Of a stretch of DNA of 64,000 nt, positions 55,862-61,994 are shown piece by piece (the first letter of the stretch is position 1; every line of letters starts with the position of its first letter). The notes beneath the pieces were generated by a model, which made no database searches, was not told the DNA's origin, and saw nothing but the letters and a program-made list of their open reading frames with translations. This stretch comes from Bacillus sp. DTU_2020_1000418_1_SI_GHA_SEK_038 (lineage in GTDB: Bacteria > Bacillota > Bacilli > Bacillales > Cytobacillaceae), in the NCBI RefSeq assembly GCF_032341175.1, contig NZ_CP135435.1, forward strand, positions 4,092,001-4,156,000. Direction: 5' to 3'. A program made the translations under genes and the position numbers.

Positions 55862-55913
55862 CCCTGAAAAATACTTACAGATCCATACGTCTGTTGTATA
55901 ATTAATAACTATA

Positions 55914-55941
55914 TTACAATAGGTAATACTAATTCTATAAT
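55914..55941 (+). promoter_or_regulatory. possible promoter of the receptor gene
   Basis: TTACAA (55914-55919), 16 bases, then TATAAT (55936-55941). It lies about 125 bases before the receptor start; the leader contains repeated TCGAA phrases (ATCGAATACTATTGAA, ATCGAATTAG) that could be regulator sites. Confidence 0.4.
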
Positions 55942-56067: not shown

Positions 56068-56952
56068 ATGAAGCTAGAGAAATACTTATTTGGGGAAATC
56101 CTCCAATCCTTTCGGCAATACAAGAATTTAACTGTAGAGGAATTAGCGGAAGGAATCTGCACAGTAGACGAATTAATTTCTTTCGAAAAAGAACGATCCT
56201 ACCCCACCATAGATGTGCTCTATAAGTTTTCAAAAAAGCTTGATATGGAGCTAACCTATTTTTTCGATATCGCTTCCAAGACAACTGTCCATTACCCAAA
56301 TGCTGTTATTCAACTAATAGAAAAGTTTAAAAGAGACCGTAATTACGAGGCGATCAACAATATCATTCAACAAGAAGAGGAAAGTCCCTTATTTAATCAG
56401 AAATCACTCAAGCAATACCTGATGTGGCATCAGGGGATTTGTTATTACTATTTAGATGGGAATGCTGATAAAGCCTTTGATACTTTGAGTAAGGCAATCT
56501 CACTTACCAATCCAAAAAGAATTTCCCTTTCCGAGAGAGAAATAGAGATTTTAACGAGTATTGGTATCATTTTTAGAGAGATCCAGAATCACCGTAGTGC
56601 CATTACTATTTTTAATGAAGCTTTAAGCAATATTGATAAACTTCCTCATATTTTAAACATGAAGGGAAAATTACGAATTTTATTTGGACTCTCCCAGGCC
56701 TTGACAGGATTAAATGAATATGAAAATTCAATATCATATTGTCAAGAAGGATTAAATCTGTGTATTAATGAGGAATTACTTTACCTTTTTAATGAATTCC
56801 ATTATCAAATTGGGCATAATTACGTTAAATTGGGTGAAATAGAAAAAGGTAAATACTACCTAGATGAGTGCCTACATCTACTAAAATTGGAAAGAAAAAC
56901 AAAATTGTTAAGTATAATGGAAAGCGAGATTGATAAACTACTTAACTCTTGA
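56068..56952 (+). CDS. RRNPP-type peptide-binding regulator (HTH plus TPR)
   Basis: A 294-residue protein with an N-terminal XRE-type helix-turn-helix (about 5-62; GEILQSFRQYKNLTVEELAE, SYPTIDVLYKFSKKLDMEL). A long array of TPR-like helical repeats (about 70-290; YYYLDGNADKAFDTLSKAIS, LFGLSQALTGLNEYENSISY, YQIGHNYVKLGEIEKGKYYL) follows. This is the layout of PlcR, NprR and other RRNPP receptors, which bind imported peptides in the TPR groove and then change DNA binding. The ATG at 56068 is six bases after GAGGG. It is followed 47 bases later by a secreted repeat-peptide gene, the usual receptor-signal order. Confidence 0.88.
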   Translation: MKLEKYLFGEILQSFRQYKNLTVEELAEGICTVDELISFEKERSYPTIDVLYKFSKKLDMELTYFFDIASKTTVHYPNAVIQLIEKFKRDRNYEAINNIIQQEEESPLFNQKSLKQYLMWHQGICYYYLDGNADKAFDTLSKAISLTNPKRISLSEREIEILTSIGIIFREIQNHRSAITIFNEALSNIDKLPHILNMKGKLRILFGLSQALTGLNEYENSISYCQEGLNLCINEELLYLFNEFHYQIGHNYVKLGEIEKGKYYLDECLHLLKLERKTKLLSIMESEIDKLLNS

Positions 56953-56999
56953 TACAATCTATTTATATTTTATGAAAAATATAGGAAAGTTGGTGCAAT

Positions 57000-57512
57000 A
57001 TGAAAAAGGTACTTAAAGTTTCCATTTTATCTCTTAGTATCCTAGGACTTGGTGCTCTAGGTGCAAATCTCGCAGAATCCGCAGACTATCCTTCTCAGCA
57101 TAGCGTAGGCGGGGTTAAACTAGCTGACTACCCTTCGCAACACAGCATTGGCGGGGTTAAACTAGCTGATTACCCTTCTCAACACAGCATTGGCGGGGTT
57201 AAACTAGCTGATTACCCTTCTCAGCACAGCATCGGCGGAGTTAAGGTAGCTGATTATCCTTCTCAGCACAGCATTGGCGGAGTTAAGGTAGCTGACTACC
57301 CTTCTCAACACAGCATTGGTGGGGTTAAAGTTGCTGACTATCCTTCTCAACATAGCATTGGCGGAGTTAAGGTAGCTGATTACCCTTCTCAACACAGCAT
57401 TGGCGGAGGAGTTAAGGTAGCTGACTACCCTTCTCAACACAGCATTGGCGGAGGAGTTAAGGTAGCTGACTACCCTTCTCAACACAGCATCGGCGGTTCT
57501 AAATTAGCTTAA
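57000..57512 (+). CDS. secreted ten-repeat peptide precursor, candidate pheromone
   Basis: A 170-residue protein. Residues 1-27 form a Sec signal (MKKVLKVSILSLSILGLGAL). The rest is nothing but ten tandem repeats of 14-15 residues with core ADYPSQHSIGG. They are joined by VKL (units 1-3), VKV (4-7), GVKV (8-9) and SKLA at the end; unit 1 has Val for Ile. The core is almost invariant while the joint varies, as expected if the core is released as a peptide. The gene follows an RRNPP receptor directly, so I infer a multi-copy signal precursor. A repetitive wall protein or bacteriocin is the alternative. A terminator follows. Confidence 0.85.
   Translation: MKKVLKVSILSLSILGLGALGANLAESADYPSQHSVGGVKLADYPSQHSIGGVKLADYPSQHSIGGVKLADYPSQHSIGGVKVADYPSQHSIGGVKVADYPSQHSIGGVKVADYPSQHSIGGVKVADYPSQHSIGGGVKVADYPSQHSIGGGVKVADYPSQHSIGGSKLA
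57081..57509 (+). repeat. ten tandem 42-45 bp coding repeats
   Basis: Units start at 57081 and recur every 42 bases (45 for units 8 and 9, which carry an extra GGA codon; the last unit is 45). The unit reads like GCTGACTACCCTTCTCAACA plus CAGCATTGGCGG plus a joint. Differences between units are mostly synonymous (TAT/TAC, CAG/CAA, CAT/CAC). Confidence 0.95.
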
Positions 57513-57522
57513 TACTTATTAC

Positions 57523-57558
57523 CAAACGAGTGATCTATTCCGATCGCTCGTTTTTTTG
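57523..57558 (+). terminator. terminator after the repeat-peptide gene
   Basis: AACGAGTGATC pairs with GATCGCTCGTT across TATTCC, followed by seven T. Confidence 0.88.
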
Positions 57559-57822: not shown

Positions 57823-58067
57823 GTACTAACCTCCTACAATATATTTAATTATATTCATATGGGAAATTTCACACACAGGAATATACTATCATATTTTTTT
57901 AGAATATGTTTTTTATGGAATAGGAAAATTCGCAACATTAAAGTTCCCTGTTACATCACTTTTCTCCACCAGGCTTCCCATTATAAAAAAATTTTTCATT
58001 AAATCATCCCACCCGTGACCTTTCCCCCCTCCCCCCTATATATAAAGGTTGAGAGGAGGTGATCAAC

Positions 58068-58286
58068 ATGGCACAGGCATTAATGATCGAGACACGGCTT
58101 CGTCTGACGTTCGAAACGGGTGTAAATGAGAAGGGCGACCCGATTTTCAAGTCTAAAACATTTGGGAATGTGAAGAAGGCGGCGACAGCTGAGCAGCTTT
58201 TTCAGGCAGCAACGGCAATCGCATCACTTAGCCAGGACTCCCTATCAACCATAGTGAGAAACGACAGCTTTGATATTCTTGGCTAA
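58068..58286 (+). CDS. DUF1659-family small protein
   Basis: A 72-residue protein, MAQALMIETRLRLTFETGVN then GDPIFKSKTFGNVK and AATAEQLFQAATAIASLSQD, matching the DUF1659 pattern of Bacillus. GGAGGTGAT lies before the ATG at 58068; the GTG at 58059 is inside that site. It pairs with the DUF2922 gene downstream, a common pairing in Bacillales. Function unknown. Confidence 0.85.
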   Translation: MAQALMIETRLRLTFETGVNEKGDPIFKSKTFGNVKKAATAEQLFQAATAIASLSQDSLSTIVRNDSFDILG

Positions 58287-58340
58287 GCAGAGGATCTGAA
58301 ACTTCACCCCATATAATAAAATGAAAGGAGGACAAAACCC

Positions 58341-58559
58341 ATGGCAAAATCATTAGAATTAACATTTGTGACAGATTCAGGAAAGCTTTCAAGACTTTCT
58401 ATCGATAACCCGAAGGAGCCGATTGATCCAGTTGCTGTTAAGCTAGCAATGGAGCAAATCGTGGCTGCGGATGTGTTCCAAACGATGAACGGCAATCTTG
58501 TTTCAGCAAAAGAAGCAAGAGTCATCGAGCGTAACGTCACCGCCTATGAACTAGTTTAA
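58341..58559 (+). CDS. DUF2922-family small protein
   Basis: A 72-residue protein (MAKSLELTFVTDSGKLSRLS, IDNPKEPIDPVAVKLAMEQI) with the DUF2922 pattern. AAAGGAGG precedes it at good spacing. It lies 54 bases after the DUF1659 gene and ends before a strong terminator; the two form a small operon of unknown function. Confidence 0.86.
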   Translation: MAKSLELTFVTDSGKLSRLSIDNPKEPIDPVAVKLAMEQIVAADVFQTMNGNLVSAKEARVIERNVTAYELV

Positions 58560-58594
58560 TTATTATAAGCCCGCAAGCTCCTATTAAAATAAAT

Positions 58595-58632
58595 GAGGCC
58601 GGTTCTGCTCTAATGCAGACCGGCCTCTTTGC
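58595..58632 (+). terminator. terminator after the DUF1659/DUF2922 pair
   Basis: GAGGCCGGT pairs with ACCGGCCTC, with an inner CTGC/GCAG stem, followed by TTTGCGTTTTG. Confidence 0.75.
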
Positions 58633-58689
58633 GTTTTGAAAAAAATCTACAGGGCACGCAGCCAAAAACCGACTAGCACACCCAATTAT

Positions 58690-60669
58690 TTAAATTTTAA
58701 ATTGCTTAATTATTTCCTGAAGTTCCTCTGCCATATAAGATAGCGAGGAGGCGGAAGCTGTGATTTCCTGCATGGAGGCTAATTGTTCCTCGGTTGCGGC
58801 GGAAACATTTTGGCTGTCTGCTGTTGTTTTGACAGCAATTTCTTCAATGCCGTGTACAACGCCAACCACCTGTTCGGTGCCAGCTGAAGTCTCTTTAATA
58901 GAGACTGAAATCGTTTGAATTTCATTGTTTACGTGATCGATAAATTGCTTGATTTCATGGAAGGCCTCTCCTGCACTTTGGGCAAGATCCATTCCTTTTT
59001 CGATTTCGGTTGTTCCTTTTTCCATCGATTCAACTGCATGGTTCGTGTCAATTTGAATAGAGGAGATGAGTTGCCTGATTGTTTCAGTAGATCTAGACGA
59101 TTGCTCCGCTAATTTACGCACCTCATCCGCAACGACGGCAAAGCCTTTGCCATTTTCCCCTGCTCTTGCCGCTTCAATTGCCGCATTTAATGCCAGAAGA
59201 TTCGTTTGGTCGGCAATCCCCGAAATCACATCAATGATTTGATTAATATCGATGGATCTTTTTCTTAAATCCTCAATGACCACGCTAAGCCTGCTGATTG
59301 TTTTGTGAATATTGGTCATTTGTTGAGATGTTAGCTGAATCGCTTGATTTCCATTGTTCACAATTCCCACAGCGTCCATGGATGTTTCGCGGACGGCTTG
59401 AGAATGGTTCAGCATCCCTTCCATTTCCGCAGACATCGCCATAACAATATGATGGCTATCCTCGACCATTTTGGATTGTCGTTCAGTTCCGGAAGCAACC
59501 TCCTGAATGGCATCGACAATTTGCTCAGTCGCTGTATTATTTTGCTCCGCGCTTGCCATCAGCTGCTGAGATGAAGCGGCCAGCATTTCTGATTTCGCAT
59601 CGACATTTTGAATCAGTTCGCGGAGAGCCCCCACCATTTTATTAAAACTTACGCCCAAATAGCTAATTTCATCATTATTTTTAACATCGAAGGCTTGAGT
59701 AAGGTCGCCCTCACTTACCTTTTCCGTTGCTGCAACCAGCCCATTCAAAGGTCTAGTAATCGACCGGATCACAAAATAAGAAAGCAAAGCCCCGATTACT
59801 ATAAAAAGACCAACGATTAACAGAGTCGTCATCAGAATCGGCTTCGTATCCTGATTGACCTCACCCAAGTCCATTACACCAGCAATTTTTATCCCCGTTC
59901 TATCATTTGTTGTAAAATCAATCTGGTTTTGGTTATCAACGACCTGTCCATCCTTCTTTTCTAATAAAGACTGAACCCAACTGCCCTCTTCCTTTGTACC
60001 CGCTTCGATTTTTGGATGAACAAGATAGTTTCCTTCAGCACTTAAAAGGATTGGGTAACCCGCTTTTCCGATCTTAATTCCCTCTGTCAGCTTGTTCAAA
60101 GCTTGGAGGCTAAGGTCCATCGCAAATACTCCTGAACCATCCTCAAGCGCGTGAGCAATGGTCACGATAACTCCGCCAGTAAAGGCATCGATATACGGCT
60201 CTGTAATCAACGGCTCCCCACTCTGCGCCTTAGCACCAATATACCAAGGGCGCACCCTCGGATCATACCCATCAGGCAAATCTTGCTCAGGATAAGCGAG
60301 AAAATCCCCATTTTCTTCCAAGGCGACATAAACAACCATCGTTTCTGGATTCAGTACCTGAAATTCCTTCAAATGCGCGATCGTTGTTGGAATCTTTTCT
60401 TCCGTAAAAGAAGCCTTGTTAAATAGCCCAGAAAAATAAGTTGCCGCATTCTCTTTTGGCTCAATAAAGCTGGTGATAAACTTATCAATGACTAATACAT
60501 TTTCTCTTGAACTAATCTGAATTTTTTCCTTAATATTGCTTTGCGCATTTAAATAGGATATGAGCCCAATCGTCACAGACGGCACTAATAAAATCAAAAT
60601 AAATGATAGAATTAATTTTTTCCTAATAGTCATTGTAAAAATAGGTTTTCTCTTTGGCTTGGTTTTCAC
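58690..60669 (-). CDS. methyl-accepting chemotaxis protein
   Basis: A 659-residue receptor. TM1 is about 18-37 ([20 protein letters not shown]) and an extracellular dCache-like sensor follows to about 275 ([24 protein letters not shown] region, with [11 protein letters not shown] and [18 protein letters not shown]). TM2 is about 280-300 and HAMP about 300-352 ([20 protein letters not shown]). A signalling hairpin tip carries [20 protein letters not shown] and [20 protein letters not shown]. The sensor's PWY pattern suggests small-molecule ligands such as amino acids or carboxylates (family knowledge). Start is GTG at 60669 after AAAGGAAGG. A leader with a terminator lies upstream. Confidence 0.92.
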
Positions 60670-61433: not shown

Positions 61434-61994
61434 ATGAAAAAACTTCTAATCACAATAACGACTGTATTTTTTCTACTAGTTGAATTTTCGACTGCTGCGT
61501 CTGCTGCACAACATACATATAAAGTGAAAACTGGAGATACTCTCTGGTCCATTTCTAAAAAGAATCAAGTTACCGTACAGCAATTAAAATCATGGAATCA
61601 GCTTAAATCAGATATCATTAAGCCTAATCAGGTGTTAAAGTTGGCTACAGCACCAGCAGCCACAGAGGCAAAACCACCCGCTCCCGCTGCAAAAGCCGCG
61701 AGCTATAAAGAAATTACTGTGAAAGCAACCGCCTATACAGCTAGCTGCAAGAACTGCAGCGGCATTACGGCTACAGGCATTAATTTAAAAAAGAATCCAA
61801 ATATGAAAGTCATTTCTGTTGACCCTAAGGTGATTCCGCTCGGTTCGAAGGTTTATGTACCTGGTTACGGGGAAGCAATCGCTGCTGATAAAGGCTCTTC
61901 TGTTAAAGGAAACAAAATTGACGTGTTTATTCCCTCTCACAAGCAGGCCATTCAATGGGGCAATAAAACCGTGAAGATAAAAGTATATAACTAA
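61434..61994 (+). CDS. secreted LysM and 3D-domain cell-wall protein (YocH-like)
   Basis: A 186-residue exported protein. Signal peptide about 1-25 (ending AASAA). A single LysM domain at about 27-71 (HTYKVKTGDTLWSISKKNQV) binds peptidoglycan. An Ala/Pro linker leads to a 3D domain at about 95-186 with the metal/catalytic aspartates in SVDPKVIPLGSKVYV, GEAIAADKGSSVKG and NKIDVFIPS. YocH and related proteins act as muralytic enzymes or wall-turnover factors, often under WalRK control in B. subtilis (family knowledge). AAAAGGAG precedes the ATG. A terminator follows. Confidence 0.88.
   Translation: MKKLLITITTVFFLLVEFSTAASAAQHTYKVKTGDTLWSISKKNQVTVQQLKSWNQLKSDIIKPNQVLKLATAPAATEAKPPAPAAKAASYKEITVKATAYTASCKNCSGITATGINLKKNPNMKVISVDPKVIPLGSKVYVPGYGEAIAADKGSSVKGNKIDVFIPSHKQAIQWGNKTVKIKVYN

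Follow-up and report, generated by a model that had tools for sequence, protein, structure and literature searches.

The question raised by this locus is whether a predicted secreted protein made of ten copies of one peptide, encoded directly behind a regulatory gene, is the signal read by that regulator. The window is a stretch of 64,000 nucleotides from Bacillus sp. DTU_2020_1000418_1_SI_GHA_SEK_038 (contig NZ_CP135435.1, positions 4,092,001 to 4,156,000); the source strain is a soil bacterium, kin of Cytobacillus. The receptor gene (56068–56952, forward strand) encodes a PlcR-like protein, 294 aa from ATG, with an N-terminal HTH and a TPR domain. An in-frame TTG lies 21 bases 5′ of the ATG. 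After an intergenic gap of 47 bases (56953–56999) follows, on the same strand, the gene of the putative pheromone precursor (57000–57512), 170 aa in length, with a predicted signal peptide and ten units. The signal-peptide region MKKVLKVSILSLSILGLGALGANLAESA (57000–57083, forward strand) has a Lys-rich start and a hydrophobic stretch; hydropathy is 2.33 over the best 11 residues, signal-peptide-like by hydropathy alone. The tandem array (57084–57496, forward strand) is recognized by Tandem Repeats Finder as a 42-base unit in 9.7 copies with 89% matches, and its sequence holds ten cores. The core DYPSQH is identical in 10/10 units. It is followed by SVGG in the first unit and by SIGG in the other nine. 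Joints are VKL, VKV or GVKV, with SKLA at the end, and the final unit has an eight-residue tail. The earlier note had described an RRNPP receptor with an adjoining multi-copy signal precursor, a gap of 47 bases and ten units with these joints; the two reading frames agree with it on each point.

An intrinsic terminator (57524–57553, forward strand), with a 12-pair stem and a T run, ends the two-gene unit; the terminator scan of the region gave 4 against 1.1 expected. Since the stem comes after the precursor, receptor and precursor are probably one unit. Sigma-70-like promoter matches by consensus scan are present upstream of the receptor at 55874–55902 (CTTACA-17-TATAAT) and 55913–55941 (ATTACA-17-TATAAT), both on the forward strand; these matches are weak, because 9 promoter-like sites were found in the region vs 6.4 expected. 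The same scan gives a weak, possible internal promoter 5′ of the precursor (TTGATA-17-TACAAT, 56930–56958, forward strand), perhaps an additional promoter for the precursor inside the unit. In an alignment of the upstream regions of six close relatives, conservation is limited to the last ~75 bases, and no palindrome stood out by eye. The PlcR box TATGNANNNNTNCATA has 9 sites in the genome (reversed control 4) and 0 within the window. Downstream (58059–60669) are genes for DUF1659 and DUF2922 proteins and, on the opposite strand, for a chemotaxis receptor; the end of a chemotaxis receptor gene also adjoins the arrays of three close relatives (L002–L004). A secreted protein with LysM and 3D domains is encoded at 61434–61994.

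The receptor matches the RNPP_C, TPR and HTH models, and its length is inside the 250–500 aa range of RRNPP(A) receptors. Its nearest solved RRNPP relative is PlcR, by sequence and by fold, with about 18% identity over the structural alignment. It is of the HTH plus five-TPR size class, as in the PlcR subfamily. From the previous designation as a PlcR/NprR-type regulator, the PlcR-like part is retained and the NprR-like part is dropped, on sequence and fold comparisons. Receptors of the NprR subfamily have nine TPRs (PMC12700828). Basic residues at the sites of PlcR 87 and 89, which in PlcR face the Glu of PapR, are present as R89 and R91. In 30 aligned receptors, position 89 is R or K in 30/30; position 91 is R in 26/30 and W in 4.

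The pair is similar to PlcR-PapR of the B. cereus group in receptor architecture, in the best match by sequence and structure, in the position of the precursor gene directly 3′ of the receptor, in the signal-peptide-like start of the precursor, and in the alignment of the covarying residues with PlcR peptide contacts. In its layout the core pattern D-[YLIM]-P-x-[QE]-H resembles PapR7, active as ADLPFEF, and the pherotype that ends in LPFEH (PMC5007282, PMC6568020). It differs from PlcR-PapR in having ten copies instead of one, which need cuts on both sides, in the core His where most PapR types have Phe, and in the absence of a PapR Pfam match, a nearby PlcR box and an M4 protease match. The window precursor has no match to Pfam PF05968 (Bacillus_PapR) at E values up to 1; among ten related precursors the model gives 1/10 weak match (E 0.1), below the cut-off. 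Unlike PapR with its one C-terminal [LVM]P[FY]E[FYH] peptide, the window precursor has ten internal DYPSQH cores and the eight-residue tail. The locus is best read as a quorum-sensing pair of the PlcR-PapR type, with the precursor a polyprotein of ten ADYPSQH-type peptides, and this reading is held with good confidence.

The receptor profile matches 35/36 genomes of the genus (E 1e-20) and 181/397 genomes drawn from the order (E 1e-15). Among named relatives in 41 loci, the window is nearest to Cytobacillus depressus, Bacillus sp. FJAT-29937 and C. citreus; other relatives are in Mesobacillus, Neobacillus, Peribacillus, Lederbergia, Priestia, Metabacillus and Thermoactinomyces. An array of two or more copies stands behind 29/29 receptor places above 370 bits in the genus (25/36 genomes), and for this reason the pairing is not ascribed to chance. 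Removal of 54 duplicates from the 221 receptor frames of the fetched loci left 167 that are unique; 23 were dropped before pairing (low score or short tail), and 144 were examined. The precursor was called as a small ORF with a hydrophobic start and the motif, on the same strand and not more than 450 bases downstream; single-copy precursors were accepted at the C-terminus only. Downstream precursors were found for 71/144 receptors, 54 with at least two copies and 17 with a single C-terminal copy.

In the receptor tree (n = 138; 29/167 unique receptors left out), the window receptor belongs to a clade of 55 (SH-aLRT 96), with an array of 2–16 copies next to 52/55. In two of the three remaining members the contig ends just after two visible DLPSQH units; in the last one the array enters a masked stretch. 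A search for RRNPP genes beside tandem-repeat precursors, proposed earlier, thus finds them adjacent in nearly the whole clade, and the notion that they are never adjacent is refuted. Outside the clade are 83 receptors, with no precursor found for 64, a single C-terminal copy for 17 (GLPSQH in Priestia, TLPFQH in Thermoactinomyces) and arrays for 2 (NIPGHH in five copies, GLPPQH in two). The single-copy precursors of related receptors are 28–106 aa long. The multi-copy label requires 2 changes on the tree of 71 paired receptors and 6 on the 138-receptor tree. The NIPGHH array belongs to the distant receptor L191; since it is outside the main clade, arrays arose repeatedly or predate the clade. 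The 64 PlcR-like receptors outside the clade with no recognized downstream precursor (L133 and L150, for example) may be orphans or may have precursors elsewhere.

Searches by precursor sequence alone gave no relatives, either in genome contigs or, at E 0.01, in a large protein search. In a precursor search of 61 genomes, 20 of the 30 places listed adjoin a PlcR-like receptor; the other 10 are repeat-rich frames with no adjoining PlcR-like receptor and were judged to be chance. The receptor has no match in 50,697 phage records and 11 matches in 72,556 plasmid records. Eight of these 11 were examined: two have a core-ending precursor and six have none within 500 bases. Plasmid NZ_CP062791.1 of Cytobacillus oceanisediminis carries a related pair (L211, 4405–4569) with two GYPTQH copies; its precursor is annotated only as a hypothetical protein.

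The DNA of the units indicates how the copies are maintained. The ten window cores have 7 DNA spellings with zero amino-acid change; summed over 45 unit pairs, the differences are 91 silent and 0 replacement. Pairwise identity of the core hexapeptide in the 54 arrays is 98.7% for units of the same array (906 pairs) vs 58.6% between arrays (1431 pairs). Core pN is 0.009 and pS 0.57; spacer pN is 0.11 and pS 0.33. No selection is deduced from the higher pS of the core, since most core codons are two-fold degenerate. The search motif demanded P, restricted three other core positions and left two free; these two are the fair test of selection, because the motif constrained the other four, and here pN is 0.009 and 0.003 vs pS of 0.76 and 0.42. 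The copies of the arrays appear to be under selection, since the core protein is constant while the codons diverge silently, and copies that have drifted silently yet are identical in protein are best explained by use of each copy.

In an alternative interpretation the pheromone system is genuine and PlcR-like, with only one or a few units released and the extra copies being tolerated passengers of slippage. It is consistent with a copy number that ranges from 2 to 16 among the 54 arrays and from 5 to 11 among the six receptors of the window's immediate clade; release from the C-terminus would also suffice in the 27/54 arrays with a tail-less last unit. Passenger copies would, however, gather replacements, and only 10/296 units deviate from the core of their own array. 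The low pN beside a high pS means that the copies are not simply recent identical duplicates. Spacers could be compared in 41 arrays: the spacer is more variable in 31 and the core in 3, with 7 ties. The last unit of the window itself carries the eight-residue tail. Passenger copies are accordingly considered improbable.

The next evidence is from the receptor. Variable receptor columns were scanned against each core position in 71 pairs by mutual information, in which shared descent inflates the scores; the pattern at 91 and 243 was first seen in a smaller alignment, before the full scan. For core position 5 (Q/E), receptor column 243 ranks 1 and column 91 ranks 2 of 275. Core Q occurs with E243 in 51/51 and with R/K91 in 51/51; core E occurs with N243 in 12/12 and with W91 in 12/12. 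Residues 243 and 91 align with PlcR Gln237 and Lys89, which with Tyr275 are the three reported contacts of the Glu of PapR (PMC6568020); Tyr275 is beyond the aligned range. For core position 2 (Y/I/L), the top column is receptor 242, equivalent to PlcR Gly236: Y occurs with N242 (8/8), I with A/S242 (18/18), and L, M or F with G242 (43/45, the Leu-Gly rule having two exceptions). In the window, R91 is encoded at 56338–56340 and N242 with E243 at 56791–56796, all on the forward strand. After thinning to 49 receptors of <85% identity (276 columns), 243 is first and 91 fourth for the former position, and 242 is first for the latter.

Cases outside the clade or outside the scan agree with these associations. 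PlcR itself combines a Leu peptide with Gly236, and A242 is likewise present in the NIPGHH system, which is outside the clade. Two plasmid systems outside the scan fit, GYPTQH with N242 and E243, and DLPYQH with G242 and E243. A phylogeny-aware pair test for the Leu trait gave 5 independent pairs; G242 changed along with the trait in 2 and against it in 0, too few independent events to reach significance. Receptor and peptide appear to have evolved together, and this covariation supports the repeat as the ligand of the receptor.

Fourteen genomes of the genus have, not more than ~2.5 kb from the array system, a second PlcR-like receptor without a recognized precursor, which is divergent in 11 of them and codirectional in 3. 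Four loci (among L009/L044, L138, L036 and L137) have a LysM-type secreted protein after the second receptor. These second receptors were compared with the array systems, as they might read the peptide of the adjacent array. Those beside GIPSEH arrays (four examples) have GH or GE at 242/243, not AN; those beside GLPTQH arrays (two examples) agree at 242/243 (GE) and do not agree at residue 91.

Long repeat proteins are otherwise often structural. The repeat protein might be a secreted structural, metal-binding or antimicrobial peptide that is merely controlled by the neighbouring regulator, and the His invariant in 54/54 array cores, partly demanded by the search motif, is in keeping with such a role. 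Against it, core residues track receptor residues that align with peptide-contact sites of PlcR; related one-copy precursors end in the same motif, singles having been accepted only if C-terminal; and the core resembles PapR7 and the LPFEH pherotype (PMC5007282). A product other than a pheromone is therefore regarded as very unlikely.

The ends of the arrays bear on the length of the signal. The core His is the very last residue in 27/54 arrays; 21 of the other 27 have a short tail with A or V at its end. Internal cores are directly preceded by LA, VA or IA in 31/54 arrays. The earlier note had described the unit as ADYPSQHSIGG. The mature signal is probably shorter, about ADYPSQH, because half of the arrays stop at H and PapR7 has the form ADLPFEF. 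A longer signal, with whole units of 14–15 residues (DYPSQHSIGGVKLA) acting as slow-release or immature forms of different activity, would accord with the Ser directly after the core in 43/54 arrays and with the different binding affinities of matured forms of duplicated Phr (PMC11343458). Such a signal is nevertheless extremely improbable, given that the 27 arrays stop exactly at the core, that spacers are far more variable than cores, and that known RRNPP peptides are of 5–10 residues (PMC11343458).

For the polyprotein pheromone, we infer by analogy per-unit excision, exact peptide ends, export, import, binding and output, as follows. The precursor would be exported via its predicted signal peptide. 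Proteases outside the cell would split the array into some ten molecules of the same peptide, probably either ADYPSQH (seven residues) or DYPSQH (six); cleavage would fall at the [LV]A joint or beside it on the N-terminal side, and behind H on the C-terminal side. An oligopeptide permease would take the peptide back into the cell, where it would bind in the TPR groove of the adjacent receptor. The peptide-bound receptor would then act as a DNA-binding regulator of target genes. As the earlier note proposed, the array may also amplify signal output per transcript. NprB is an M4-type protease. No M4 protease (PF02868, Peptidase_M4_C; 0 matches) was found in this genome. PapR maturation is reported as partly due to NprB (PMC4701985); the NprB route is not supported in this genome. 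The genome has 5 subtilases and 18 matches to SBP_bac_5 over the cut-off.

Excision from within a precursor has a precedent in PlcRa-PapRa of B. cereus, where PlcRa is a PlcR paralogue and the candidate peptide CSIPYEY is located inside a 93-aa precursor (PMC3519770). The targets of PlcRa are reported without a PlcR-type palindrome, as at the window locus; PlcRa-PapRa differs in its one copy and in a precursor gene upstream of the receptor (PMC3519770).

The earlier note had also considered the locus an undescribed kind of system. This is not upheld, because the principle of the multi-copy precursor is already published for AimR, NprR, PlcR, Rap and Phr: for AimR, NprR, PlcR and Rap, propeptides are reported to hold a single mature peptide in as many as six copies, with repeats in 3/15 unusually large PlcR propeptides (PMC9765709), and up to eight copies in Phr propeptides (PMC11343458). 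As in these propeptides, several identical pheromone copies, here ten identical cores, are present in one protein. In two phage Phr propeptides, each of the two copies can yield mature peptide (PMC11343458), and both Phr3T peptides are described as matured and active (PMC9765709, PMC11343458, PMC5199041). Duplication has been proposed as a route to new specificity (PMC5199041). Maturation and retention of multi-copy precursors are named as an open question (PMC9765709, PMC11343458). The present system differs in copy number, with 10 in the window and up to 16 in relatives against the reported maxima of six (PMC9765709) and eight (PMC11343458), and in the near-universal array in one receptor clade across several genera.

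The precursor is longer than 100 aa in 21/54 arrays, that of the window included. RRNPP_detector takes propeptides of 10–100 aa (PMC10075063), a search setting and not a biological definition, outside which the 170-aa window precursor falls; a 100-aa detection limit would miss these 21 arrays. Neither this clade, nor the arrays of as many as 16 copies that nearly all its members have, nor the receptor-core covariation was found in the open-licence literature, which is weak evidence of absence, and the core strings gave an unrelated match only.

Fungal alpha-factor-type mating-pheromone precursors are polyproteins of identical pheromone copies with spacers, and in this they are similar to the arrays; their proteins, receptor and processing route are unrelated. 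They have been named as a parallel (PMC5199041).

The broader reading is of a polyprotein pheromone of 2–16 identical peptides, all copies selected, in one PlcR-like clade of several Bacillaceae genera, with a receptor code at 242, 243 and 91 that tracks the peptide (Y/I/L and Q/E). It is put forward as evenly balanced between true and false. Since in this same reading the code tracks the peptide, the whole array would be rewritten at each change of the code. In this clade the array is near-universal, copy number varies, each array has one peptide, and peptide changes track identifiable receptor residues. The system merits further work, since its clade lends itself directly to tests of dose and specificity, as a comparative series in which copy number can be set against signal dose and the specificity residues can be tested. 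If the reading is true, the arrays would be a natural series for signal dose and for the evolution of specificity.
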